Assembly: GCF_038592905.1 (NCBI RefSeq)
Contig: NZ_CP151943.1
Coordinates: forward strand, 2,234,501-2,298,500
Source of the DNA: Neobacillus sp. FSL H8-0543
GTDB taxonomy: Bacteria > Bacillota > Bacilli > Bacillales > Cytobacillaceae
Length of the DNA stretch: 64,000 bases
Direction: 5' to 3'
The notes under the pieces are model-generated. The model saw only the letters and a list, made by a program, of their open reading frames with translations, was not told the origin of the DNA and did no database searches. Positions 8,128 through 61,691 of the stretch are shown one piece after another. Every line of letters begins with the position of its first letter. The first letter of the stretch is position 1. The position numbers and the translations under genes were made by a program.

Positions 8128-8147
8128 ATGTGGTCAGTGAATAATTC

Positions 8148-8640
8148 GGCAGACAGAATGATGATTTTGGCAGATAGACCAACGAAAAAAGCAGATAGAG
8201 CCATCAATTCGACAGATAAGAGAAACTTCGGAAGACCTAAGTGATCAATGTTCAAAGATTGTAGCTTATTATAATGCAGTAAATTACAAATAAAGGAAAT
8301 TACGACCCCGAAGTAAGGTAACTTAGGTCCTAAACTCGGGTCAGTGATCTAATCCGCAGATAGAATGATGATTTAGGCAGATAGACCAACGAAAAAAGCA
8401 GATAGAGCCATCAATTCGGCAGATAAGAGAAACTTCGGAAGACACAAGTCCAAAGTATTTAAGGATTGTAGCTTATTATTACGTGGTAAATTACAAATAA
8501 AGGAAATTGACACCCCGAAGTAAGGTAACTTAGGTCCTGAACCGGGGTCAGTGATCAAATCCGCAGATAGACTGATGATCTTGGCAGATAGACCAGCTAA
8601 AAAGGCAGATAGAGCCATCAATTCGGCAGATAAGAGATAC
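8148..8640 (+). repeat. 21-bp-period GGCAGATA arrays in a 207-bp triplicated unit
   Basis: Core GGCAGATAG (with variants) starts at 8148, 8169, 8190 and 8211; at 8355, 8376, 8397 and 8418; and at 8562, 8583, 8604 and 8625. Spacing inside each block is exactly 21 bp and between blocks exactly 207 bp. Between blocks a conserved ~120-bp segment carries GTAGCTTATTA and CCCCGAAGTAAGG. One stray core lies at 8701. The array starts 21 bp after the hydrolase stop codon and reads in its direction. It fills the 615-bp gap between the hydrolase and allH; no coding potential is seen. Confidence 0.9.
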
Positions 8641-8742
8641 TTCGGAAGACACAAGTCCAAAGTATTAAAGGATTGTAGCTTATTATTACGTGGTAAATTC
8701 GGCAGATTAGGGATACTTAAGAGGGCTAAAGAGAACAACTCT

Positions 8743-11773: not shown

Positions 11774-13096
11774 TTATTCAACAATTTCGTCGTTTTCAAA
11801 TACTACGTTTCCATTTACTATCGTTGTTTTCACTTTTCCTGTGAAGGTTTTTCCGATATATGGTGAGTGCTTGTGACGGTAAAGCAAATCTTCTTGCTTC
11901 AGTTCGAAGCTTTCGTTCAGGTTAACGATCGTCAAATCAGCATCATAGTCAGCTGCAATCGTTCCTTTGTTTGCAAGACCAAATATTTTTGCAGGATTTG
12001 TTGCTGTTAGTTCAACAATTTTTTCTAATGGGACATTACGTTTTGAATAACCCTCTGTCAATAAAACGTTGAGCGTGGATTGAGCGCCAGAAATTCCGCC
12101 CCAACCTTCAAAGTAGTTGTCTGTGATCACTTTCATTGATGCAGGTGCTGGTGAATGGTCAGAGGCAAGCATGTTAATCTCACCATTGGCCACAGCAGCC
12201 CATAGCTCATCCACTTCATCCTGGTCTCTCAATGGCGGGCAGCATTTTGCAATCGCACCCTTTTCTTCTAGATCCTTAACCGTTAACGCTAAATAATGCG
12301 CACAGGTCTCACAGGTTACATCGACGCCTCTTGCCTGCGCTTCTTTAATTACCTCAACCACTTTGCGGCTACTTACATGGACAATATGGAGTTTACAGCC
12401 AGTAGCTTCAGCATAAGAAATAATTCTTCTAACTGCTTCAATTTCAGAAATAACCGGTCTTGATTCAACAAAATCACGAGCGGTTGTTTTTCCTTGCGCG
12501 ATTTTTTCCTGTGCCAGCTGGTCGCAAATAACCGTGCTTTCCGCGTGAACCGCTAACAATGAGCCTAATGAGGCGATTTCCTTCATCCCTTTAAAAAGAG
12601 TTTCGTCATCCGCATTATCAAAGTCAGCAATACCGCTTGGCGACATAAACGCCTTAAAGCCGATCACGCCATTTTCATGTAAACCTTTTAGGTCAGCAAT
12701 GTTTTGTGGAACCAATCCACCCCAATATCTAGGATTCACAATAGATTTTTCATCGCCAAGTGCACTTTTCAACGCTAAATTTTCTTTGTTGATCGTTGGA
12801 GGTGTACTGTTCAAGGGCATATCAAAGAAAGTTGTGACTCCGCCGGCAGCTAAGCTTCTGCTTCCTGTCTGGATGCCTTCCCATTCTGTTCTGCCTGGCT
12901 CATTAAAATGAACATGTGTGTCGATTAATCCTGGTAGGATATGCTGAGCTGTTGCATCGATTACTTTTGTTGCTGTTCCTTCAAGTGAAGTTCCTACAGA
13001 GATAATTTTTCCGTCCTTGATAGCGATATCTCCTTGGATGCTTGATTCAGCGGTTACGATTGTTCCGTTTTTTATAAGTAAGTCATAATTTGTCAT
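11774..13096 (-). CDS. allB: Allantoinase, PucH-like copy
   Basis: 440 residues of the amidohydrolase superfamily, starting MTNYDLLIKNGTIVTAE. Metal centre motifs are intact: DTHVHFNEPGRTEWEG near residue 58, the carbamylated lysine in GFKAFMSPSG near 147, histidines in HAES and HIVHVSS, and ASDHSPAP near 310. It opens the hydantoin ring of allantoin to give allantoate, the AllC substrate. Block for block it resembles B. subtilis PucH more than the neighbouring copy does. It is downstream of the second allantoinase and the permease, convergent with pucR. Dihydropyrimidinase is a less likely alternative. Confidence 0.9.
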   Translation of the reverse strand: MTNYDLLIKNGTIVTAESSIQGDIAIKDGKIISVGTSLEGTATKVIDATAQHILPGLIDTHVHFNEPGRTEWEGIQTGSRSLAAGGVTTFFDMPLNSTPPTINKENLALKSALGDEKSIVNPRYWGGLVPQNIADLKGLHENGVIGFKAFMSPSGIADFDNADDETLFKGMKEIASLGSLLAVHAESTVICDQLAQEKIAQGKTTARDFVESRPVISEIEAVRRIISYAEATGCKLHIVHVSSRKVVEVIKEAQARGVDVTCETCAHYLALTVKDLEEKGAIAKCCPPLRDQDEVDELWAAVANGEINMLASDHSPAPASMKVITDNYFEGWGGISGAQSTLNVLLTEGYSKRNVPLEKIVELTATNPAKIFGLANKGTIAADYDADLTIVNLNESFELKQEDLLYRHKHSPYIGKTFTGKVKTTIVNGNVVFENDEIVE

Positions 13097-13325: not shown

Positions 13326-14684
13326 TTACTTACTAGCAGATAATAGTTTTCCTTTTGGTGTTCCTACGATGCCTTGGTTTAGGTCGAATACGATGTTTCC
13401 GCGTAGGATGGTTTTTGTTACACGGCAGTCGATTTTTCTGCCTTCGTAGGCACTGTGTTTATTTTTATAATATAAATCTTCACGTTTTACTGTGTATGAT
13501 TGGTTCGGGTCAACTAATATAATATCGGCATCCTTGGAAACAGCAATTTCCCCTTTATTTGGAAGGTTGAAACGTGCTGCTGGGTTGGTTGCGATTAAAT
13601 CAACGAATTTATTAACGGCTAATCCGCGTTGCTTAACAGCTAAATCAAACATTAAATCCACGTTATTCTGTGCTCCGCTAATTCCGCCCCATGCTTCGAA
13701 AAGATTTCCTTGCTTCAAATCCTCTGTACATGGTGAGTGGTCGGAAGTAAGCCAATTAATATTTCCGTTCATAAGCTCGTCCCATAATTTTGCCTGGTCC
13801 TTTGCTTTGCGAAGCGGCGGCTGACATTTTGCCTTCACACCAATTTGCTCAACATCCTCAGCCGTCATGGAGAAATAATGCGGACATGATTCAACCGTAA
13901 CATCCACACCCTCTTGCTGTGCTTTTAGGATCACTTGAACGGCTTCTGAAGTACTAATATGAACAATATGCAATTTACAGCCTGTCTCTTTTGCAAAAAG
14001 AATCGCGCGTTGCACGGCATCTACTTCTGTAAAAATCGGACGTGAATCAACATAATCCATTGCCGTTGTTTTGCCCTCGCGCACAAATTCAACAGCAAGC
14101 TTAGACGTAACAGATGGATTTTCCGCATGAATACAAAGGATTTGATCCAGCTCGGCTAGTTTCTGCATGCCTTTATATAAAGTATAATCATCCACATTTG
14201 TGAAATCGCCAGGAACATCACTTGTTATATCAGACATGAAGCATTTAAAGGCAAGAACTCCTGCATCCGCTAATTCCTCCAGCTTGTCAAGGTTCTCAGG
14301 AACAAGTCCACCATAAAAACCGTAGTCGACATAGTTTTGGTTAACTGCTGCTTCTAGTTTAAGGTTTAGGTTGTCACGGTTAATGGTTGCAGGCAGTGCG
14401 TTAAGCGGCATTTCCACATAACTTGTCGTACCGCCGGCAGCAAGCGCCATCGATCCCGTTTCAAAGCCTTCCCATTCCGCACGTCCAGGCTCGCTAATAT
14501 GTACATGTGTATCAATCATTCCAGGCATAACATATTGACCGGCTGCATCGATAACTTCGGTTGCATCCTCGGTAATTTCCTCCGCGATACAAGAAATTTT
14601 TTCATTTTTAATTCCGATATCAAGTTGACGAACGCCGTCACGCAATACAACATTTCCGCCTTTAATAATTAAATCGTATTTCAT
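13326..14684 (-). CDS. allB: Allantoinase, E. coli AllB-like copy
   Basis: 452 residues starting MKYDLIIKGGNVVLRDG behind an AGGGGGAAA ribosome site. Amidohydrolase metal motifs are present: DTHVHISEPGRAEWEGFETG, AFKCFMSD with the lysine expected to be carbamylated, HAEN, HIVHIS and TSDHSPCTEDLK. The C-terminus GIVGTPKGKLL is like that of E. coli AllB, while the other copy looks like PucH, so the pair may be of different descent rather than a recent tandem copy. It lies directly after the permease, separated by a hairpin. Predicted role: allantoin to allantoate. Confidence 0.9.
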   Translation of the reverse strand: MKYDLIIKGGNVVLRDGVRQLDIGIKNEKISCIAEEITEDATEVIDAAGQYVMPGMIDTHVHISEPGRAEWEGFETGSMALAAGGTTSYVEMPLNALPATINRDNLNLKLEAAVNQNYVDYGFYGGLVPENLDKLEELADAGVLAFKCFMSDITSDVPGDFTNVDDYTLYKGMQKLAELDQILCIHAENPSVTSKLAVEFVREGKTTAMDYVDSRPIFTEVDAVQRAILFAKETGCKLHIVHISTSEAVQVILKAQQEGVDVTVESCPHYFSMTAEDVEQIGVKAKCQPPLRKAKDQAKLWDELMNGNINWLTSDHSPCTEDLKQGNLFEAWGGISGAQNNVDLMFDLAVKQRGLAVNKFVDLIATNPAARFNLPNKGEIAVSKDADIILVDPNQSYTVKREDLYYKNKHSAYEGRKIDCRVTKTILRGNIVFDLNQGIVGTPKGKLLSASK

Positions 14685-16618: not shown

Positions 16619-17485
16619 TTATGAGTTTGTTGTGTTTGTTGATTCTGGAGATTCATCATCTGATGGGGTATCGCCTTCAGATGGCTTCTCTTTTTCAGAA
16701 GGAGTTTTTTCTTCTTCTTTCGAATCATCATCAGAAAGATCCGGATCTTCAATCATTTGTTTATCATCTGAACCATTTGTTTCATCCGCAAGTGTTTCTT
16801 CCTGCAAGACGCTTATTGATTTATTGAAATAACTTGTCGGATTAACAGCTACACCATCTTTGCGAATTTCAAAATGTACATGTATTCCAGCTTCTTCATT
16901 GAACAAGCTTTGTCCAGCCATGGCAAGTTCTTGTCCTTGTTTAACTTTATCGCCAACCTCGACCTTTACATCTTTAACGGATGAATATTGTGTTACAATA
17001 CCCTTATCATGTTCGATTTCAATGACATTCCCGAGGGTAGCATCTTCTTCGACTCTAGTAACGGTACCGCTAACCGATGCGACAACAGCAAATGTTTCGC
17101 CATCCTTTGCGGCCAGGTCAACACCCGTGTTCTGGACGTACTGATTGTTGTAATATACTAACGCGGCTTCCTGATCCTCATCACTTGCATTGAAATCATA
17201 GAATTCCATTTTAACAACGGCATCCAACGGTTTTTCCACAGGCATCTTGAAGTTTTCTAATGCTGCATTCACTTCAATTGCCGGTGTTTCGTTCTTTTTA
17301 TCCGTCACATCAGTAGCTTCGTAGTCGAACTTATCTTTTGTGCTATCGTTGCTTTGGAACCAAAGAACACCTGTCAGAATAATAGCTGCACTTGCAATAT
17401 AAATGGCTGGAAATACCCACCGCTTTTTGAAAAAGCGTTTAACGCTGGAACCTTGAGAAGATCGTTTGTTTTCTTCCTCTCTCAT
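16619..17485 (-). CDS. spoIIQ: Stage II sporulation protein Q, engulfment channel component
   Basis: 288 residues starting MREEENKRSSQ, as in B. subtilis SpoIIQ; the longer frame to 17506 is dropped because GAGGTGA sits just before 17485. One membrane segment (about residues 20-40, RWVFPAIYIASAAIILTG) precedes an outside-facing LytM/M23 domain. The domain keeps HVHFEI but has NTGVD where active M23 enzymes have H-x3-D, so zinc binding is incomplete, as known for B. subtilis SpoIIQ. SpoIIQ acts in the forespore membrane and pairs with SpoIIIAH during engulfment. The acidic Ser/Glu-rich tail (last 60 residues) is typical of longer Bacilli versions. SigF control is expected, but no convincing site was assigned. 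Confidence 0.95.
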   Translation of the reverse strand: MREEENKRSSQGSSVKRFFKKRWVFPAIYIASAAIILTGVLWFQSNDSTKDKFDYEATDVTDKKNETPAIEVNAALENFKMPVEKPLDAVVKMEFYDFNASDEDQEAALVYYNNQYVQNTGVDLAAKDGETFAVVASVSGTVTRVEEDATLGNVIEIEHDKGIVTQYSSVKDVKVEVGDKVKQGQELAMAGQSLFNEEAGIHVHFEIRKDGVAVNPTSYFNKSISVLQEETLADETNGSDDKQMIEDPDLSDDDSKEEEKTPSEKEKPSEGDTPSDDESPESTNTTNS

Positions 17486-17630
17486 TTTCATCACCTCAGC
17501 AATCATTCTGAACAGATTAGAAGAATTATATACACTAGCAAAAAAAAATTTTGTACTTATTTTTCGACAATGCGATTGTTTTTATGCATTTGAGGGAGAA
17601 ATATTTAAAAAAAGGAGAAAAGTCTTTACT

Positions 17631-18056
17631 ATGAAAGTTTTTAAATGGCTATTACGAATCCTGCCAATCGTCTATATGGCAGCGATTTGGACGATGTCAA
17701 GCCTACCATCCAACCACATCGTCGAGCTTCCGGATTCGCAAATCGACTCTTTCATCAAAGAATCATTGCATTTAATAGAGTTCGCGATCCTCTATGTCTT
17801 GCTGGTATTGGCTAGCTTAACCTTTGAACGCAGGACCTTCACACCGTTGTGGAACATCGCGTGTGCCGTGTTTGCCGGACTCTACGGCGTCAGCGACGAA
17901 ATCCACCAGTCGTTCTACCCTTACCGCTCCGCATCGCTCTTTGACCTCGTCAAAGACATCACAGGCATCCTTGTCTGCTTCTATTTTATAAGGGGCGCAC
18001 TATTTAAAGGGAAATTTGTGAGACTTCGGAGGGTGCTGGAGAGGATACAAATGTGA
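17631..18056 (+). CDS. VanZ-like family membrane protein
   Basis: 141 residues starting MKVFKWLLRILPIVYMAAIW. The ATG at 17631 with upstream AAAGGAG is chosen over the longer frame, which overlaps spoIIQ in antisense. About four hydrophobic segments are seen. The VanZ signature is clear: SLHLIEFAILYVLLV in the second helix, then DEIHQSFYPYRSASLFDLVKDITG. VanZ-like proteins confer low-level teicoplanin resistance in enterococci, but their role in Bacilli is unknown. It lies divergent from spoIIQ and converges on the NERD gene. Confidence 0.85.
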   Translation: MKVFKWLLRILPIVYMAAIWTMSSLPSNHIVELPDSQIDSFIKESLHLIEFAILYVLLVLASLTFERRTFTPLWNIACAVFAGLYGVSDEIHQSFYPYRSASLFDLVKDITGILVCFYFIRGALFKGKFVRLRRVLERIQM

Positions 18057-18079
18057 AATTTGGGTGGTGGCGAGTATTT

Positions 18080-18171
18080 TATTTGCCACTTTCCACTTTT
18101 TATTTGCCACTTCGCGATTTTATTTGCCACTTCTCGACTTTATTTGCCACTTCGCAACTTTATTTGCCACT
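18080..18171 (-). repeat. 20-bp-period AGTGGCAAATA array at the 3' end of the first NERD gene
   Basis: Five copies of TATTTGCCACT (minus-strand AGTGGCAAATA) start at 18080, 18101, 18121, 18141 and 18161, so the period is 20-21 bp. Spacers are similar but not identical (TTCGCGATTT, TTCTCGACTT, TTCGCAACTT). The last two copies lie inside the NERD reading frame and encode its final residues. Confidence 0.92.
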
Positions 18172-19174
18172 TCGCGATTTCTGAATGATCTCTTTTACAA
18201 ATTGGTGTAGTCGGCCGGTAATAGACTCGCCCCTTACGGTTACCGATATACGGTAAATTTAAAGATTTCAATATATTGTTTGCACTTTTAATGGAATCAA
18301 TTTGGAGAAAATGGCGTAATTCAGAATTTGTAATTGAGGGCTTGATTAGAAGGAAGTAATCTTCAATCGCTTTAATATGAGCCGTTTTTGACTTTTCTTT
18401 GCAATGGAGACAGGTCCATACACCGTAATGATATTTCATTGGAAGGCTATCACATTTAGGACATTGGACTCCTGGCAAGAGGTCCTTCGGAGTAAAGTTG
18501 AAATACTTGAGGATATCTGGGTCATCAGGAGTATGTTTAGTTAAGAGGAGCCGTTTTATTTTACGTACATCTTGTCTAGTTAACTTCTCTTCTTTATAAA
18601 ATTTTTCTATTAGCTCTATTTTATCGATTAGAGCCTCGCTATTGCACATATTTTTAAATTGGTCATTGCCATCTTCACAGGTAATTTTTGATTTTTCATG
18701 ACTATTTACAAAAAGATAATGGATCGGCACCTCTTCACACTGGTGCTCGTCCAACCACTGTTTCAGCTTTTTCGATTGTAGTTTGGCTTGTGCAACAGGA
18801 TTCTGGATTTTCTCCTTCGCCCCATCAAATAATAAATATGCCTGATTAAATTCATCGAAATACCAATCTCGCGACCTCTTTTTCACTTCGAGAGCTAGAG
18901 CAAATTTATGACAGAGTATGAGAAAGTCTATTTGAAAATAGTATTTTCCAGATAAAAGCCGAATTTCATGGAATACATGATAATCTTTTGATTGAATAAG
19001 GGGATCTAAATAGAATTCTAATGACTTTTCCCCCTTATATCCTTTAATCCTGTTATTATATTCGGTTAGTACCTCCATTTTCCTTGAATTTGTAGTAGGT
19101 ATCCTTGCGTCTAAAACCTTCAACTTTACTATTCTCGGTGACATCTCGCATACCTTGTCATACATTCGCAACAT
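18140..19174 (-). CDS. NERD-domain protein with zinc ribbon and C-terminal helical DNA-binding-like region
   Basis: 344 residues; the ATG at 19165 (fourth codon) is better spaced from AAAGGAAAGGA and may be the true start. The NERD domain spans about residues 45-170, with E49, FQIDFL (D83) and ALEVKKR (E96, K98), a PD-(D/E)XK-like nuclease pattern. Next come a helical region and a zinc ribbon, C238-x2-C241 and C255-x2-C258. A helix-turn-helix-like tail contains SITNSELRHFLQIDSIKSAN. NERD domains are often tied to DNA processing. It is paralogous to the gene at 60274-61281. Repeat arrays lie on both sides, and the last 13 residues are encoded by repeat units, so the original C-terminus was extended or replaced. 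Target unknown. Confidence 0.8.
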   Translation of the reverse strand: MLRMYDKVCEMSPRIVKLKVLDARIPTTNSRKMEVLTEYNNRIKGYKGEKSLEFYLDPLIQSKDYHVFHEIRLLSGKYYFQIDFLILCHKFALALEVKKRSRDWYFDEFNQAYLLFDGAKEKIQNPVAQAKLQSKKLKQWLDEHQCEEVPIHYLFVNSHEKSKITCEDGNDQFKNMCNSEALIDKIELIEKFYKEEKLTRQDVRKIKRLLLTKHTPDDPDILKYFNFTPKDLLPGVQCPKCDSLPMKYHYGVWTCLHCKEKSKTAHIKAIEDYFLLIKPSITNSELRHFLQIDSIKSANNILKSLNLPYIGNRKGRVYYRPTTPICKRDHSEIAKWQIKLRSGK

Positions 19175-19296
19175 TCCTTTCCTTTTATTAAAAATTCGTC
19201 TTCTTCAATCTTTCACCTGCAAAAAATTGTTACAGATTTATGTTCGTTCTTTGGAAAAATATCCGCCAACTACCTTTTTTAAGACTTTTTTCATTT

Positions 19297-19411
19297 TATT
19301 TGCCACTTTGTCCTAGTTATTTGCCACTTTGTCCTAGTTATTTGCCACTTTGTCCTAGTTATTTGCCACTTTGTCCTAGTTATTTGCCACTTTTGAAATT
19401 TATTTGCCAAC
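19297..19411 (-). repeat. 21-bp-period AGTGGCAAATA array upstream of the first NERD gene
   Basis: TATTTGCCACT starts at 19297, 19318, 19339, 19360 and 19381, with a degenerate sixth copy at 19401. Four successive spacers are the identical TTGTCCTAGT, so this array looks recently expanded. It lies between spoIID and the NERD gene, in the transcription direction of both. Confidence 0.93.
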
Positions 19412-19441
19412 TCTATCCGAACACACTTAAAAACGCCAGAA

Positions 19442-19462
19442 AGCCAGGCAAAATGCCTGGCT
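19442..19462. other. Hairpin between two repeat arrays
   Basis: AGCCAGGCA-aaa-TGCCTGGCT, a perfect 9-bp stem without a T-run. It separates the arrays at 19297-19411 and 19553-19646. A similar GCCAGTC hairpin lies beside the array near 50 kb. Confidence 0.6.
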
Positions 19463-19552
19463 CAGATCACTATTTGTGAATTTGCCCATTTATTTAGACG
19501 AATTCCTGGACGAGACTCACTTTTTATTACCTTTTTTTAGATTTTCTCATTT

Positions 19553-19646
19553 TATTTGCCACTTTTGAAATTTATTTGCCACTTCGCCTTATTTATTTGG
19601 CACTTTCCACCTTTTATTTGCCACTTCGACCTATTTATTTGCCAAA
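19553..19646 (-). repeat. 20-21-bp-period AGTGGCAAATA array downstream of spoIID
   Basis: Cores begin at 19553, 19573, 19594 (TATTTGGCACT variant), 19615 and 19636 (degenerate). Spacers differ, unlike the neighbouring array. It starts 16 bp after the spoIID stop and reads in the same direction. With the arrays at 18080 and 19297 it brackets the NERD gene. Confidence 0.88.
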
Positions 19647-19661
19647 TTCCGTAAACACACC

Positions 19662-20684
19662 TTATTTCTTCGCAGTAATCGTCGCAAGCATACTCTCAGC
19701 GGAGGAGATCTCTACTCCTTGATAGTAGTGCTTGACAATCTCTTTATAGTCCTTACCCTCAACGGCCATTCCATTGGCTCCGTATTGACTCATGCCAACG
19801 CCGTGTCCGTAGCCTTTGGTACTGATGACAATTTTACTCCCTTTCCGTTCCCAAGCGAAGTCAGAGGATTGTAGCTCTAGTGCCTCGCGAATCTCTTTTC
19901 CAGTCAAAACCTTCCCATTGAAATCCACTTTAGCGACGCGTTTACCTGTGGTGCGCTCGACAATTTTTCCAATGGTTGAATCCGATCCTACCTTAACACC
20001 TAATTTGGCTTCAAAATCCTTCACACTCATCACCTTTTGACTGCTAAACTTCGGAGAGTCTTTATCCCACGGACTTGAAACACTCCTTAAATAGGGTAAT
20101 TCATTTGACCAGTAGTCTTCGGAGTTTTCCGTGTAGCCATTGCTAGTCGAGAAGAAGGAGGCATCGATAGCCTCACCATTATAGGTTAGAATTTGTCCGC
20201 TGGTTGCACGAACAGCAGCGAGAACTTTTGACCTTTTCCTTTCGTAATCTTTATCCCATTTTTTCCGGAGCTCCTCGTCACTATGATAGACTTGATGCAG
20301 CTGGGTATCTGTGACCTGGGCGCCATCCGGGACACCCATCTTGTCTTTGCTTAGCATTTTTTTCACAATGTACGTTCTTGCCGTTAGCGCTTGTGCTTTC
20401 AAAGCTTCGTCTTCAAAGTCGGCATACATTTCGGCTGCAACCACCCCAACGAGATAGTCTTCAAGTTGAACATTTTCGATTTTTCCTATGGCTGAACGGT
20501 AAACCGCTACCTCGACCGCTGAATCGGTGGAGGATGGGTTCTGTTCTGGTGTCTTCGTTAACTCTTCACCTAATTCCCCGTTCGCCTTTCCATCCGTGAA
20601 GGGTAATACTAAAACAGCGGGAATAATTAGTATGACGGCAAAAAGAATCGATACTAGTACGATGAGTGGTTTGAATTTTTTCAT
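19662..20684 (-). CDS. spoIID: Stage II sporulation protein D, septal lytic transglycosylase
   Basis: 340 residues starting MKKFKPLIVLVSILFAV; GGAGG lies 7 nt before the ATG at 20684. An N-terminal membrane anchor (about residues 5-28) is followed by the SpoIID domain with VVAAEMYADFEDEALKAQA, FFSTSNGYTENSEDYW and GYGHGVGMSQYGANGMA. The enzyme cuts glycan strands with SpoIIP and SpoIIM to drive engulfment in the mother cell. As in B. subtilis it lies after murAA. A SigE-like promoter is seen upstream. The gene is intact and of normal length. Confidence 0.96.
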   Translation of the reverse strand: MKKFKPLIVLVSILFAVILIIPAVLVLPFTDGKANGELGEELTKTPEQNPSSTDSAVEVAVYRSAIGKIENVQLEDYLVGVVAAEMYADFEDEALKAQALTARTYIVKKMLSKDKMGVPDGAQVTDTQLHQVYHSDEELRKKWDKDYERKRSKVLAAVRATSGQILTYNGEAIDASFFSTSNGYTENSEDYWSNELPYLRSVSSPWDKDSPKFSSQKVMSVKDFEAKLGVKVGSDSTIGKIVERTTGKRVAKVDFNGKVLTGKEIREALELQSSDFAWERKGSKIVISTKGYGHGVGMSQYGANGMAVEGKDYKEIVKHYYQGVEISSAESMLATITAKK

Positions 20685-20725
20685 GTCGTTGCCTCCATTT
20701 ATGTAAATTTGTTGCATCTCATTCA

Positions 20726-20755
20726 ATCATATGGAGGAGGACAAGCATTTATGAT
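20726..20755 (-). promoter_or_regulatory. Candidate SigE promoter of spoIID
   Basis: On the minus strand ATCATAA (-35 like) and CATATGAT (-10 like; consensus CATACANT) have spacing suited to SigE and lie about 45 bp before the start. spoIID is SigE-controlled in B. subtilis. The match is partial. Confidence 0.45.
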
Positions 20756-35401: not shown

Positions 35402-35479
35402 GATACTTTTTATCCGATCTTTTTCACTGCAGCTGCATTCTTTCTTGAAATCACCGGTGGATTTCGGATTGTTAAAGGC

Positions 35480-36982
35480 TTATTTTCCACTTTCCAACTT
35501 ATTGTCCAGCTTTCCTAGATATTTTCTAGCAAACTCTGTTCCGCCGAGACCGAACGCCAGACCAAAAGCCAACGCCAATCCGCCTAATACAAGGATGAAA
35601 GCAGCATTAACAATCGAATGTGCAACACCTAATTGATCTAATGCCATAAACACAGTGATGGTAAAGATTGTATATTTTGTTATTCTTGCAAGCATTCTAG
35701 AATAGTTGTGTTGTACGATGGTTTGGAGAATTCGTTCCATAAACTGTCCTACGTATAATCCAATACCGAGAATGATGATTGCTGTTAACAACATTGGCAG
35801 ATAGGCAATCACCCCGGTTGCCAATGTAACTAAGAAGTCTAACTGAACAATTTGTAAGGCTTCTACGGTAAACAAGAGAACAACAATAATTTTGGCCAGT
35901 ATTCCCACCATTTGTGACAGAGTATACTTCGGCGGGTCTGGTGTTAATGCACCAATCCCCATCTGATGAAAGACTTGATCGAATCGCAAGCGCCATAGCA
36001 TTTGTGTAACCAATTTCGCCACCCATTTTCCAAGCCAAATACCTGTTACTACTAGGATGATCGCAACAATCATATTTGGAATCATCGATAGAACCTCTTG
36101 AAGCATCGCAACGGCCGGTTCAGATATTCCCTTTAGTTCTAATTTCTCCAATGCCGTTATGATGACAGGAATTAAAATTAAGATAAATACGATATTGCCA
36201 ATTATTGTTGAAAGACTAGTCTCCTTTTCGTCATTTTTAAAAAATCCAAACCGAGAACCAAGCTTATCCAAACCGACGCCTTTTAGAAAGTTCGTTAAAA
36301 TATCACGGACAATTTTTGCAATCAGCCAGCCAATGAACACAATCAATGCTGCTGCAAATAACTTAGGTATAAAAGCTAATATCATCGTCAATGCATTTGA
36401 AAATGGCTCTGAGATTCCTTCTAATTCAAGCGCCTCTAGGATAGCTGGAATAAATAACAGGAGAACAAAATAGAAAATTGCCATTCCGATACCATTTACT
36501 CGATTGGCAGCTTCTAGGGCGTTATTTGCCATTTTCCATTTAACAAGCTTTTCTCCTAAACGGATTATCCCTGCCCCTTTTATAAAGAGATAACGCAGCA
36601 AGAAAGCAATTGCCCAGGCGAATAAAAGAGTCAGTGCAGCTTTTAATAGATGAGGGATTGCTGCTGTCATCGTTGAAACCATTTTTACAAGAGGTTCAGC
36701 AATCAGGCCTAAGTTCAGCATATTAAAAAAGATAATCCACACGACAACAAGTAACGTATAATAGACGATTTTTCCTATGATTGATTCAGTCGAATACTTT
36801 CTATTTTTAAAACTCGAAAAAAGTTTATCATCGAATGCGGTTCTCTCAAGTGCAGCTTCTACAGCTCTTCCAATCCCCTTTGCCGCCAGCCAGCCGATTA
36901 ATAGAACAAGTAGTGCCAACAACACGTGGGGAATTCGATCAGTGTATATGTACCAACCCGTCATCATATTTTCTACACTCAT
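35480..36982 (-). CDS. Multi-TM MscS-related conserved membrane protein
   Basis: 500 residues with AGGAGA upstream. Three repeats of a paired-helix unit (near residues 15-65, 210-260 and 300-350, each with patterns such as LLVLLIGWLAAKGIGRAVEA and FIGWLIAKIVRDIL) and a closing TM_helix segment with LGGLALAFGLAFGLGGTEFA. These are the features of the 'mechanosensitive ion channel family, TM helix repeat' proteins (DUF5665/TM_helix type), which lack the soluble MscS vestibule. A role in osmotic adaptation is likely but unproven. A SigB-type promoter lies 45-70 bp upstream. Confidence 0.75.
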   Translation of the reverse strand: MSVENMMTGWYIYTDRIPHVLLALLVLLIGWLAAKGIGRAVEAALERTAFDDKLFSSFKNRKYSTESIIGKIVYYTLLVVVWIIFFNMLNLGLIAEPLVKMVSTMTAAIPHLLKAALTLLFAWAIAFLLRYLFIKGAGIIRLGEKLVKWKMANNALEAANRVNGIGMAIFYFVLLLFIPAILEALELEGISEPFSNALTMILAFIPKLFAAALIVFIGWLIAKIVRDILTNFLKGVGLDKLGSRFGFFKNDEKETSLSTIIGNIVFILILIPVIITALEKLELKGISEPAVAMLQEVLSMIPNMIVAIILVVTGIWLGKWVAKLVTQMLWRLRFDQVFHQMGIGALTPDPPKYTLSQMVGILAKIIVVLLFTVEALQIVQLDFLVTLATGVIAYLPMLLTAIIILGIGLYVGQFMERILQTIVQHNYSRMLARITKYTIFTITVFMALDQLGVAHSIVNAAFILVLGGLALAFGLAFGLGGTEFARKYLGKLDNKLESGK

Positions 36983-49695: not shown

Positions 49696-49932
49696 TTGAG
49701 GCTCGCAAGAACCGACGACATCAACCCCTATTTAACAACAAGTCTAGACAATCCGCTGTGAGAATTGTCATAAAAAAGACACCAAATCTCCATTTCTTGT
49801 ACAAAATCTATATACAACTTAATATTCTCATAGATACAAAAATCCCACTCCGTCCCTCAATATTACATTCATATTCCAATGACCATAATTCATTCTCCTT
49901 TTACCTCTTCTCCTATCAAACACACCTAGATT

Positions 49933-50267
49933 CCATCTTCCAAACCCACTCTTATCCCTACATCAAACACCAAAGGCCAGTCGCAAGACTGGCACAACTC
50001 ACTTTTCCCCTCTCGGTTAAGCTCCAAACGCACTTAATAATTACCACATAATCATAATTCCATTTTTATTTTCCACTTTGGTGGATTTATTTGCCACTTC
50101 TCTACTTTTATTTGCCACTCTCCCTAATCCATCTTCCAAACCCACTCTTATCCCTACATCAAACACCAAAGGCCAGTCGCAAGACTGGCAAAACTCACTT
50201 TTCCCCTCTCGATTAAGCTCCAAACGCACTTAATAATTACCACATAATCATAATTCCATTTTTATTT
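49933..50267. repeat. 139-bp direct repeat, two copies 196 bp apart
   Basis: Bases 49933-50071 and 50129-50267 are almost identical (differences include GGCACAACTC vs GGCAAAACTC and CTCGGTT vs CTCGATT). Each carries a GCCAGTC-gcaa-GACTGGC hairpin and ends in the TATTT core of the neighbouring array. Confidence 0.88.
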
Positions 50268-50356
50268 GCCACTTTAGACGATTTATTTTCCACTTCTCTA
50301 CTTTTATTTGCCACTTTCCCATTTTATTTGCCACTCTGGTCGATTTATTTGCCACT
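50067..50356 (-). repeat. 20-21-bp-period AGTGGCAAATA array after atpC
   Basis: TATTTGCCACT or TATTTTCCACT begins at 50067, 50088, 50109, 50263, 50284, 50305, 50325 and 50346; the two blocks have 20-21 bp spacing and are split by the second copy of the 139-bp repeat. It lies 97 bp beyond the atpC stop, past its terminator, and reads in the atpC direction. Same core as the arrays around 18-19.6 kb. Confidence 0.9.
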
Positions 50357-58084: not shown

Positions 58085-60277
58085 TTATTTCTTTTTCTCT
58101 TCAATAGTAATCATCGTTTCAATGAAGTCTTCCTTCCCAGCCTTTTTTGCAAACACCTTTACAAGGTAGATTCCAGGCTCAGGGAGGTGTTCAGCTGAAA
58201 CTTCCTTTGTCAGCATACCTTTTTTTACATTCCAATTTGTATCGATAAACCCGACAAACCGATAATCATCGGGATGAAACAAGGCAATTCCAAATTCCTC
58301 TGCCCCTCCAGGTAAATAGACCTCATAACGGTAAATACCAGGCTTATCGCCATCCTTAAAATCAAAGCCCATCACCCGCGGGTAATTCGGTTCCTCTAGC
58401 ACATATATATAAGGAAGATGAATGGTATCTTTCCCAGCCACTATGTTCACATAGCCATCATGAATCTTACCCTTCAGGAGCTTTGGGTCGACCTGTAGTT
58501 CAATTGTTAAATCACGGGATTGCCCTGGTTCAAGGGAAAAGGACAGCGGCAGGCGCCAGTGAAGACCATCTGTCTGTTTTGGAATCTCAAAGGAATAACT
58601 GATTCTTTCATCACTAACATTCTCTACCTGCAGGTAGGCCTTGTGACTATCCTCTGAATCACCATATTTACCAAACTTAAGCGAACTGGGGATAGCGAGC
58701 GAACGGGCCTTCACCGCTTCGTCCACTTGAATTCTTCCTGCTCCCTGCTCAAACGTCCTGTAAAGCTCTGAATCCTTTTTCAGTAACGGCTTAGCCGTAT
58801 TCATAAGCGACGCCTTAATTTGCTCAGGCGTCCACTCCGGATGGGCTTGCTTAATTAATGCACAGGCCCCAGCCACATGTGGCGCGGCCATGCTCGTCCC
58901 CTGCAGTGACAAATAACCGCCCGGAATCGTCGAATTAATGGCTACACCCGGGGCAACAATATCAGGCTTTACCTCCCAGGTATCTGTCACCGGACCTCTT
59001 GAGCTGAAATCTGCAAGCCGGTCCTTTTCTTCTGCAACCGAAACTCTGACAGAGAGGCTCCCTTTCTTTTTTAATCGTTCTCCCTCACGCTTAGTTAGTG
59101 AACCCACCGGGATGGGCAAGGGTGAGTCAAGATTCCCGATAAAACCCCCGCTTAAATTATTATAAATAAGGACCGCTTTTGCTCCAGCCTCGAGCGCATT
59201 TTGGGCTTTTTCCGTAAAGGTCAATTCTCCCCTTTTTAAAAGTACCATCTTTCCCGCTGCATTTATTAATTCCGCCCTTGTTCCAAGGCCGCCATCCACT
59301 ATCGTCAGCGAGCGGTCAAGCGTCCACTTTTTCGAGCCCTCGAGCGGTTGAATTCGAATTTTTCCTCTGCTTTCTTCTATTAATAAATAAGGAATTTCCA
59401 TTGTCGGTGTTGAGGCCCCGACGGAAATAGCATCAGAGGCGGTGCCTGGCGATCCGACCGTCCATTGGTTCGGTCCCGAATTACCGGAAGCCGCAATTGC
59501 AACAATCCCCTTTGCAGCCGCGCTATTAAGTGCCAGGCTGATCGGCAGGTCAGGTCCATTAACATCATTGCCAAGCGAAAGGTTCATAATATCGACTTTA
59601 TCCTTGATTGCCTGTTCAATCGCCGCGATGACTTGTTCCGTTGTTCCGCCACCTCCAGGTCCGAGGGCACGATAAGCAAGAATTTTCGCCTCGGGGGCAA
59701 CGCCTTTAATTTTTCCATTGGCGGCAATAATCCCAGCCACATGTGTGCCATGAACTGTTGCCTGCCCCTGTGTGAGTGTTTCCATCGGATCATCGTCACT
59801 ATCCACCAGATCCTGGCCGCCGCCATAGTTCCTTCGGAGATCGGGATGATTATAATCGACGCCGGTATCAATGACACCTACGGTAATCCCCTCTCCCGTC
59901 AGCCGGTGATTGTCTTTATCAAAAAAACTTCGGACCAGGTCTCCGCCAATCATTTTGACGCCTTCCTCCGTTTGTACTTCATATTTCGTCACCGGTGAAA
60001 CATTGATAACTTGTTTATGCCTCTGCGCAAGCTGATTAAGGGATTCTGGATTTCCTTCAACAGAAAAACCATAAATCGCCTCTTGAAAAACCCGACGCAG
60101 CTTGATGTCCTTGTAGGGTTTAAGAAGCTGGCTGATTTCCTTTGCTGTTTTTGGAGTATCGAGCACAACAATCGCAATCCGTTCCTTTGGAATCGGTGGG
60201 GGCGTTAATGTCCGTGCTGTGGCTATGTTTTGGAAGGATAGAAGTATGGTGATTAGTAAAACAAGCAGCTTTTTCAT
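58085..60277 (-). CDS. Vpr-like secreted subtilisin (S8) protease with PA domain
   Basis: 730 residues: signal peptide (MKKLLVLLITILLSFQNIA), I9 prodomain (about 30-105), catalytic domain with D137 in VGVIDTGVDYNHP, H176 in VHGTHVAGI, N266 in AASGNSGPN and S462 in LQGTSMAAPHVAG. A PA insert (about 320-415, with AGAKAVLIYNNLSGG) and an Fn3-like C-terminal region follow. Resembles B. subtilis Vpr but is about 75 residues shorter. Its ATG overlaps the NERD gene stop as ATGA, so the two are translated from one message. Confidence 0.92.
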   Translation of the reverse strand: MKKLLVLLITILLSFQNIATARTLTPPPIPKERIAIVVLDTPKTAKEISQLLKPYKDIKLRRVFQEAIYGFSVEGNPESLNQLAQRHKQVINVSPVTKYEVQTEEGVKMIGGDLVRSFFDKDNHRLTGEGITVGVIDTGVDYNHPDLRRNYGGGQDLVDSDDDPMETLTQGQATVHGTHVAGIIAANGKIKGVAPEAKILAYRALGPGGGGTTEQVIAAIEQAIKDKVDIMNLSLGNDVNGPDLPISLALNSAAAKGIVAIAASGNSGPNQWTVGSPGTASDAISVGASTPTMEIPYLLIEESRGKIRIQPLEGSKKWTLDRSLTIVDGGLGTRAELINAAGKMVLLKRGELTFTEKAQNALEAGAKAVLIYNNLSGGFIGNLDSPLPIPVGSLTKREGERLKKKGSLSVRVSVAEEKDRLADFSSRGPVTDTWEVKPDIVAPGVAINSTIPGGYLSLQGTSMAAPHVAGACALIKQAHPEWTPEQIKASLMNTAKPLLKKDSELYRTFEQGAGRIQVDEAVKARSLAIPSSLKFGKYGDSEDSHKAYLQVENVSDERISYSFEIPKQTDGLHWRLPLSFSLEPGQSRDLTIELQVDPKLLKGKIHDGYVNIVAGKDTIHLPYIYVLEEPNYPRVMGFDFKDGDKPGIYRYEVYLPGGAEEFGIALFHPDDYRFVGFIDTNWNVKKGMLTKEVSAEHLPEPGIYLVKVFAKKAGKEDFIETMITIEEKKK

Positions 60278-61281
60278 CTGTAAAATTCCCCTTTTTTACT
60301 ATCGTTTTCATCGTGTGGGGAAAGTATGCAGAGGTTATATCTGGTTCCGCGTTTTGAACCCGTGTTAGGGAGTTTCAAGGCGAGAAGTAAATTCTTTGCT
60401 TTACTCGTGGCTTCAATTTGTAAAACTTGAGCAAATTGCTTTCTTGTTATTGTCTGATTGATGAGGAGAAAATAATCATCTACAGTCTGAAAATGAGCTG
60501 TTTTTGAAATGAAGTTACAATAGGAACAGTGCCAATTTGCCGAAAAATATTTCATCGGGAAACTTTTACAGTTGGAACATTGAACACCAGGGATCAATTC
60601 AGATTGGGAAATTTGGTATTTTTGAAGGATATCTGGAATGGTAATTTTATGCTCTTTAAGAAGAGTATCAGATAATTGGAGCAACCTTTTTTGGCTGATT
60701 CGAGGCTTTTGATATTTCATTCCTAATTCCCTTATTTTATCTAGTAGGGATTCTGCATAAATTAACTGTTGGAATATTTGATGATTGTCAGGGGTCGTTT
60801 CAACTATTGTAGTGGTTTTGCTAATCATCACCAATGACTCGACTGGCAACCCTTTCAGTTGCCTTTTATTTAACCAATTCATATATTGAATTTGCTGCCT
60901 TTTAACCTGTTGAATGGGATTAGGCATTCCTTCTTCATTATTATCAAACTCTTTAACAACCAAATTAGAGCCTTTTTTGAAAATCAGTTTACCCGAGATG
61001 TTTTTCACTTCAATAATCAAAGCAAATGAAGTTGAGATCAACAGTAAATCCATCTGGAAATAATTTGTATCCTTGAGACGCAAGCCATGAAATATTAAGT
61101 ACTTCTCTTCTGGCAAAAATGATAGATAGTAATCAGCATCTTTTTCTCCGTAGTAACCCTTTAGCCACGCTCCCAGATCTTTTTTAATAATAGGACGCTT
61201 TGGATGATTCATTGGCAACCTTCGTAATAATGCCATACACTGTAATGCCTGAATGGGTAGCCTAACCTCCAACTTTATCAT
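60274..61281 (-). CDS. Second NERD-domain protein with zinc ribbon
   Basis: 335 residues starting MIKLEVRLPIQALQCMALL with GAGGTGA upstream. NERD core: GYYGEKDAD (E46), NYFQMDLLLI (D78), LIIEVKNISG (E91, K93). Zinc ribbon C235-x2-C238 and C252-x2-C255, then TITRKQFAQVLQIEATSKAK. Paralogue of the 18140-19174 gene with the same architecture, including PGVQC and a DYFLLI stretch. A 21-bp-period array with a different core lies about 250 bp upstream. Ends in an ATGA overlap with the protease gene. Confidence 0.82.
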   Translation of the reverse strand: MIKLEVRLPIQALQCMALLRRLPMNHPKRPIIKKDLGAWLKGYYGEKDADYYLSFLPEEKYLIFHGLRLKDTNYFQMDLLLISTSFALIIEVKNISGKLIFKKGSNLVVKEFDNNEEGMPNPIQQVKRQQIQYMNWLNKRQLKGLPVESLVMISKTTTIVETTPDNHQIFQQLIYAESLLDKIRELGMKYQKPRISQKRLLQLSDTLLKEHKITIPDILQKYQISQSELIPGVQCSNCKSFPMKYFSANWHCSYCNFISKTAHFQTVDDYFLLINQTITRKQFAQVLQIEATSKAKNLLLALKLPNTGSKRGTRYNLCILSPHDENDSKKGEFYR

Positions 61282-61529
61282 TAAATCACCTCTTCATTTT
61301 GATTTCAGTGGTAAATTCGATATCGTTTAGTTATTTCCTGCAAAAATATTATGTAGATATTGTGAATTTAGCAGTGCCCATGAATATTCAATGAGTTTAG
61401 GGTGGAGGCTTGTGTTTATCGAGGGATTTCCTGCAATAACATTGGAATAATCCTGGGTTTTGTGAGTGGCTTCGAGGATTTTGTGCAATACTTTGGTGGT
61501 TTTCTGATTTGGGATAGGAACCTCCGGAG

Positions 61530-61604
61530 TTTTGTCCATTTATTAAGGTGTTTTGTCCATTTTCTTGGGTGTTTTGTCCATTTTTCACTGCGTTTTGTCC
61601 ATTT
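61530..61604 (-). repeat. 21-bp-period AAATGGACAAAA array upstream of the second NERD gene
   Basis: TTTTGTCCATTT begins at 61530, 61551, 61572 and 61593, exactly 21 bp apart, with variable 9-bp spacers (ATTAAGGTG, TCTTGGGTG, TTCACTGCG). The minus-strand core AAATGGACAAAA resembles the AAGTGGCAAATA core of the first NERD locus. It fills part of the 455-bp gap between upp and the NERD gene. Confidence 0.92.
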
Positions 61605-61691
61605 AGACATTTTTTACCAACAAAAATACCCACCACGGTATGGAACTACCCATATTTCTACCATTTCCAGACATCCAATACAGGTCTCACA

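Follow-up and report, generated by a model that had tools for sequence, protein, structure and literature searches.

The window analyzed here is a 64,000-nucleotide stretch of Neobacillus sp. FSL H8-0543 (contig NZ_CP151943.1, positions 2,234,501 to 2,298,500). It contains a NERD gene that lies between a spoIID-like gene on one side and vanZ-like and spoIIQ-like genes on the other, together with arrays of short direct repeats (Table 1). The names given to neighbouring genes here and below (spoIID, spoIIQ, vanZ, atpC, upp, comEA, comEB, rsgA, msrA and pheT) were assigned from the translations and are presumptive. The first-pass annotation had described three arrays with a 20–21-bp period and a common core around the NERD gene; all three were located and their exact copies of the core, AGTGGCAAATA, could be counted, with a core spacing of 20 or 21 bp. 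In the whole window 25 matches to this core with at most one mismatch were found, where 100 shuffled versions gave 1.7 on average and never more than 6; the arrays are genuine, well beyond chance expectation. Four spacers of the nearer upstream array are identical, which presumably reflects a recent duplication of units. Beyond the three arrays, the window holds two further arrays of the same core in trans and a second NERD module.

Table 1. Features of the window (positions counted from its first letter)
Feature	Position	Strand	Remarks
spoIIQ-like gene	16619–17506	-	conserved neighbour, other side of the NERD site
vanZ-like ORF	17466–18056	+	on the same side as the spoIIQ-like gene
Downstream array	18080–18171	-	5 exact cores AGTGGCAAATA; overlaps the NERD ORF in its final codons
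NERD gene	18140–19174	-	predicted PD-(D/E)XK fold, residues 5–194; zinc ribbon; winged helix-turn-helix, residues 262–327
Upstream array	19297–19411	-	5 exact AGTGGCAAATA cores at 19297–19391 and a degenerate core ending at 19411
Second upstream array	19553–19646	-	directly after the spoIID-like stop codon; 3 exact and one 1-mismatch AGTGGCAAATA core in 19553–19625, degenerate core ending at 19646
spoIID-like gene	19662–20726	-	conserved upstream neighbour of the NERD site
Trans array, same core	50067–50119	-	within a 196-bp tandem duplication; first core with 1 mismatch
Trans array, same core	50263–50356	-	behind the atpC-like 3' end; one copy with 1 mismatch
Second NERD gene	60274–61281	-	adjoins a upp-like gene
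Upstream array of second NERD gene	61529–61605	-	own, different core AATGGACAAAAC

Some other features of the window were observed on the side. The tandem duplication that takes in the trans array behind atpC spans 49932–50320 (95% match). A 207-bp tandem repeat at 8132–8699 contains GCAGATAG-type cores about 21 bp apart, with no adjoining NERD gene seen, and a weak 20-bp array with a core like GGAAAATA is found at 35479–35530. The frames at 11774–13096 and 13326–14684 are presumably adjoining allantoinase-like genes, beside a permease-like gene. The protein of the second NERD gene is 32% identical to the first by alignment and 34% by genome search. In Bacillus methanolicus the NERD gene BMMGA3_16030 is placed 456 bp from upp in a part of PMC12802215.

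The NERD domain that had been assigned to the gene in the first-pass annotation was confirmed by Pfam (PF08378, residues 44–156, E 2.2e-17, 64 bits against a cut-off of 22.1). It was the sole family above cut-off in the Pfam search of this protein, with no Rep initiator and no Y1 (HUH) transposase; the PADLOC anti-phage models gave 0 families for 4 proteins, and NCBIfam matches were far below cut-off. The structure model (pLDDT 93.8) shows that the helix-turn-helix-like tail of the same annotation is a winged helix-turn-helix, with residues 295–305 as its third helix and residue 295 as the first of that helix. The zinc ribbon stands in part: the four cysteines C238, C241, C255 and C258 are conserved, but both Pfam zinc-finger matches fall below cut-off. 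Among 166 aligned long-frame proteins, D83 and K98 are present in all 166, E49 and Q129 in 165 each, and position 96 is acidic (E or D) in 163. With this set of E, D, (E/D)xK and Q residues, the protein is predicted to be a PD-(D/E)XK nuclease.

The association between NERD genes and arrays is observed directly in many genomes. The genome of the window has nine NERD paralogues by protein search and 12 by Pfam; the array check covered nine of the 12, and an array adjoins every one of the nine (three with 20–21-bp units, one with 20-bp and five with 52-bp units). The five 52-bp arrays (L021–L025) begin 20–72 bp behind the NERD gene; L025 is split in two frames and L022 is apparently short at its start. 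The NERD domain was found in all 61 genomes of the genus. For the linkage test, 60 genus loci of 20 kb were hand-picked among the best-scoring NERD matches listed, with long contigs preferred, and arrays with units of 19–22, 40–42 or 51–53 bp were scored. An array lies within 500 bp of the NERD gene in 56 of these 60 loci, compared with 23 of 598 other genes from the same stretches (Fisher p 2e-57). The other four have no array by the repeat finder, and three of them (L082, L090 and L104) have a weaker repeat chain. An upstream 20–21-bp array was seen in 45 of the 60 loci, at a median of 114 bp before the start codon, and a downstream one in 28, at a median of 9 bp behind the stop codon; in four loci 52-bp arrays lie 54–87 bp downstream. 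Outside this sample, 9 of 13 named loci (Neobacillus, Bacillus, Salirhabdus and others) have a 20–21-bp-class array within 500 bp and four do not. Across the order, the family profile has matches at E≤1e-15 in 161 of 199 genomes and in 77 of 97 genera.

A second NERD type (L021–L025, L081, L089, L091 and L114) has its 52-bp arrays just behind the gene, with each unit different, so the 52-nt satellite class is tied to NERD genes too. By eye, some of the 52-bp units seem to contain inverted repeats. In L233, L224, L236 and others the 20- and 21-bp spacings often alternate, giving a 41-bp super-unit, as though the proteins bind pairwise.

Cores differ among NERD loci, and each sampled locus has its own. 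The pattern of two GTGGCAAATA copies separated by 8–12 bases was found in two of the 61 genus genomes, G000 and G046, and an orthologue of the window NERD gene with more than 80% identity is present in exactly the same two. The pattern is absent from 34 other genomes that have a relative at E≤1e-60 (at most 57% identity), and the co-occurrence of core and cognate gene that had been proposed as a check was thereby borne out in the 61 genomes, with the pattern confined to the two that have the close orthologue. Most of the E≤1e-60 relatives whose flanks were read lie between spoIID- and vanZ/spoIIQ-like genes and have an upstream array with another core; other cores found with natural orthologues are, for example, GTGGCCGATA and GTGGACAGTA. 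Pairs of a second core, TTCGCTGATA, were found in 35 of the 61 genomes, at most 52 in any one, and the reversed control of this core gave no hit in any of the 61. Between 15 and 52 TTCGCTGATA pairs were counted in G039, G051, G060 and G052, where the sampled gene has the TTCGCTGATA core, and zero in G004, G007 and G045, three genomes in which the gene sampled, at the pheT-like site, has AGTGCTGATA as its core. When the units of the 18 dispersed G052 arrays are located by the exact 10-bp core, about three further bases flanking it prove conserved, and the remaining spacer is weakly conserved. At 24 spoIID sites from genomes with no E≤1e-60 match, three array-like repeats (2.2, 2.5 and 9.6 copies) were found within 1.5 kb, two sites have a diverged NERD gene or a piece of one, and 19 have neither. 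Among 42 family matches from the genus, 11 were flagged with a stop inside the matched stretch. Ten of these 11 keep an open frame of at least 323 aa, so the flagged stops may be terminal, and gene decay as read from these flags is little favoured, since ten flagged frames are of full length. The match in G027 is clearly short (223 aa).

If each protein reads its own core, the part of the protein that does the reading should change together with it, and the covariation observed among the loci fits this. For training, 83 cores were hand-registered from automatic consensuses, with unclear loci, 52-bp loci and duplicates left out; four loci had no long open frame and were dropped, so that 79 proteins were aligned. 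Given the rest of the protein, the partial association between core and winged helix is 0.227 in the spoIID-site set (S, n=27) and 0.386 in the TCGC set (T, n=32), both with p 0.002. The NERD domain given the winged helix adds nothing significant in either set (S, -0.010, p 0.56; T, 0.105, p 0.18). In a third set (U, n=20) the winged-helix partial of 0.198 is not significant (p 0.088), and the NERD domain retains 0.144 (p 0.036). When all 79 are pooled, by an earlier split, the NERD partial (0.243) exceeds that of the C-terminal part (0.157) in a pool that mixes subfamilies. In two of three subfamilies, then, divergence of the core tracks the C-terminal winged helix and not the nuclease domain. 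By column scan, the winged helix holds five of the top 14 columns in each of the S and T sets and the others lie elsewhere; columns 295, 299 and 315 are in the top 20 of both sets. At residue 295 the training set pairs I with A at core base 6 in 19 of 19 cases, R with C in 5 of 6, S with G in 10 of 10 and P with G in 19 of 24.

This residue-295 rule was then applied to loci from other genera. The held-out set consisted of 88 automatically registered loci, 28 from the profile search and 60 hand-listed from the best matches. An ORF was present in 87, and 86 showed an array-like chain, by a loose criterion that does not amount to counting arrays; the quality filter left 54, and 43 could be evaluated. 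The base was predicted correctly in 26 of the 43 (null 12.6, sd 2.8, p 1e-4) and, after deduplication to less than 60% likeness, in 21 of 36 (58%; null 10.4, p 0.0002). Taking the base from the nearest training protein was right in six of the same 36. Shared ancestry does not explain the rule, since this baseline falls far short of it and these deduplicated proteins are at most 50% identical to any training protein. Residue 295 against base 6 was the planned test, and 78 residue-position pairs were also scanned without correction. The weak points of the data are the hand-registered training cores, the hand-chosen loci and the loose array chains of the held-out set; the strongest evidence is this automatic held-out prediction together with the test on trans arrays.

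The trans-array test made use of the site behind atpC, which is occupied by an array in the sister genome G046 as well. Of 30 genomes, 7 have an array there according to the repeat finder. For 16 genomes the spoIID-site core was known; together these have 23 matches to their own core behind atpC, where permutation gives a mean of 3.4 (p 1e-4). These come from six of the 16 genomes (G000, G046, G052, G029, G039 and G034); of the ten with no own-core match, eight have no array, G055 has a weak repeat and G060 has an array of another core. The G060 array fits another spoIID-type gene of G060, L447, which has GGACAGTAA five times and GGAGAGTAA three times upstream; the core used for G060 in the test was that of another of its three spoIID-type genes, and the genome was scored 0. 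The array behind atpC tends to bear the genome's own core. In G039, besides the matching array, there is another whose core fits none of the examined genes.

A question that is raised by these arrays is what they are for, and their position speaks to it. We collected 49 dispersed arrays, namely one each from 26 genomes, 18 from G052 and five from G000 and G046, and excluded two with no neighbour, three inside an ORF and one (L178) beside a NERD gene. Among the remaining 43, the array is preceded by the 3' end of a gene on its own strand in 32 cases (p 0.0019); with L178 still included the count was 33 of 44, with 19 arrays in convergent, three in divergent and 22 in tandem gaps. One possible option is that the protein is a transcription regulator, with the arrays as its operators and the nuclease domain as a relic. 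The winged-helix fold of the model and the frequent array shortly before the start codon would agree with it, yet the active site is conserved and the downstream arrays begin almost at the stop codon. The context of the dispersed arrays, mostly behind 3' ends and between divergent genes in 3 of 43, further speaks against ordinary promoter operators, and we consider this option quite improbable. Another option is that the arrays are useful to the host, with protein lined up behind operons as a roadblock or insulator that would stop read-through, or as a nucleoid anchor that would organize the chromosome. This would explain why dispersed arrays favour 3' ends and convergent gaps, and why several genomes retain the site behind atpC with a core that varies along with the protein. 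Stabilization of the nucleoid by an unnamed protein was also proposed earlier by Subirana and Messeguer (PMC8161180). Against it, arrays behind atpC are patchy in their presence, and every paralogue has a separate core. Such a role is possible, but we regard it as rather doubtful.

It can also be suggested that the array–gene–array unit is a mobile, homing-like element and that the dispersed arrays mark sites that stand empty or were once occupied by it. One site change fits this: the NERD genes between rsgA and msrA in G023 (L083) and between comEA and comEB in G060 (L086) are 92% identical by the blast measure and have the same core. The comEA-comEB gap is array-free in 29 of 29 other genomes scored (58 have the gene), so the gene and its arrays seem to have arrived jointly. 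The rsgA site of G060 holds a five-unit solo array that, by eye, closely resembles the upstream array continued by the sequence that follows the downstream one, as recombination between flanking arrays would leave. From these comparisons one unit appears to have changed site, the sole relocation seen. On the other side, the closest relative is found at the same site for 48 of 59 NERD genes, which are mostly vertically inherited, and a transposase gene was not seen. Since the new site was array-free, the gene did not home into an existing array there, although this covers a single placed insertion. At both sites the relocated unit is bordered by a common intergenic repeat (GTCTAGCTCCAG; GTCTAGCTCCAGCGCC...GCGCTTTTCT; L083, L086 and L336), and this repeat may have mediated the move. 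The dispersed arrays do not look like solo remnants or simple copies of one cassette, since the flanks of 20 G052 arrays (18 of them dispersed) share just four short pairs of 17–24 bp; decay of the genes, as discussed above, adds little. Mobility as the main explanation is therefore unlikely. A role of the arrays as small RNAs is very improbable: 52-nt repeats of B. coagulans are reported as transcribed in a section of PMC8161180, but the 20–21-bp arrays of the window fold, as RNA or DNA, no better than shuffles (z -1.23 to 1.07), the Rfam scan of positions 17400–20400 gave zero matches, and the cores covary with a helix predicted to read DNA. Hardly credible at all is simple hitch-hiking, in which arrays and genes would both be tolerated in the same few conserved intergenic sites that they share; it is opposed by the gene-level control of the linkage test, by a residue-to-base prediction that works in other genera and by the own core in trans behind atpC.

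A more probable mechanism that fits our data is a PD-(D/E)XK nuclease directed to a tandem array of its own. One winged helix would read one core of about 9–13 bp, and the 20–21-bp spacing, two turns of the helix, would place successive copies on one face of the DNA, so that several molecules could line up. Because the protein and its cores diverge jointly, each paralogue would have a private address. The nuclease would act on the bound array, with breaks or nicks leading to unit duplication, recombination between arrays and, rarely, relocation, and the module would most likely be inherited vertically and maintain itself in the manner of REP/RAYT. That the NERD protein recognizes its own array is highly probable and strongly supported by the covariation, from which we infer physical binding. 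Nuclease action at the arrays is held more tentatively, at somewhat less than even confidence, and the whole explanation, with a nuclease that reads its private array by the winged helix and a module that maintains itself, we consider probable. The first-pass annotation had proposed that the protein recognizes or spreads the arrays; recognition is upheld by co-occurrence, covariation and prediction, but spreading is not, as the flanks of the dispersed G052 arrays are barely shared. More generally, it seems fairly probable that the Bacillales have a large family of self-addressed nucleases with private, fast-changing satellites in cis and in trans, and with a partly decipherable residue-to-base code.

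The repeats themselves are known. Of 4029 tandem repeats in 176 Bacillus genomes, 66.2% belong to the 20–21-nt and 51–53-nt classes according to PMC8161180, in which Subirana and Messeguer (2021) describe no obvious function for these satellites. The sections of that paper on the 20–21- and 52-nt satellites describe, as in our arrays, a constant unit length with variable sequence, several families per genome and a short conserved stretch in each repeat. For the 52-nt repeats its authors see no evidence for a Cas-like protein, and they suggest that some protein may polymerize on satellite DNA (PMC8161180, in part). The words 'nuclease' and 'NERD' have 0 occurrences in the main text, and no gene is tied to the repeats in its Discussion and early Results. 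A literature search among open-licence PMC papers found no paper that links the satellites to NERD or names a protein for them. What is new, compared with the satellite catalogue, is the pairing with a NERD gene family, the covariation code and the matching trans arrays; periods of 20–21 and 52 bp adjoin different NERD paralogues of one genome. If the mechanism is correct, NERD nucleases would be the missing partner of both satellite classes, and action of the nuclease at the arrays would help to explain the origin of satellites, their uniformity and their change alongside the reader. A cognate nuclease also turns the satellite puzzle into a bench question, with the clear prediction that a protein will bind the core of its own array but leave its neighbour's unbound, and the natural protein–core pairs are a resource for the study of winged-helix specificity.

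Several known systems resemble this one in part. Plasmid iterons are 20–22-bp direct repeats, two helical turns in length, that are read by a winged-helix Rep protein encoded next to them. The likeness lies in direct repeats of about two turns beside the gene for a winged-helix protein, whose reading is here predicted; unlike iterons, the NERD system is chromosomal (a single 5.3-Mb contig), with many paralogues, a nuclease domain and no Rep initiator domain. Homing endonuclease genes are flanked by their own recognition sequence, as the NERD nuclease gene is by its presumed one, but in the one relocation event seen the new NERD site, comEA-comEB, is array-free in the other genomes scored. Can2 and Cdn1 are CRISPR ancillary PD-(D/E)XK nucleases with a sensor domain; the NERD protein has instead a C-terminal zinc ribbon and winged helix and no sensor domain, and the shared fold shows no function. 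Our arrays also differ from CRISPR arrays of repeats and unique spacers, as their units are 20–21 bp in all and their spacers of about 8–10 bp are partly identical. Together with the iterons, the nearest system in its mode of working is REP/RAYT (TnpA-REP), where a vertically inherited, nuclease-like gene is flanked by repeats with extra copies near 3' ends, as here further copies lie outside genes near 3' ends. RAYT is a relative of Y1/HUH transposases and REPs are palindromes, whereas our system pairs a predicted PD-(D/E)XK enzyme and winged helix with direct-repeat arrays that, in the 20–21-bp arrays of the window, do not fold. If our reading is right, the NERD proteins and their arrays would be a bacterial counterpart of coevolving satellite–protein pairs such as REP-RAYT and PRDM9 with its hotspots.
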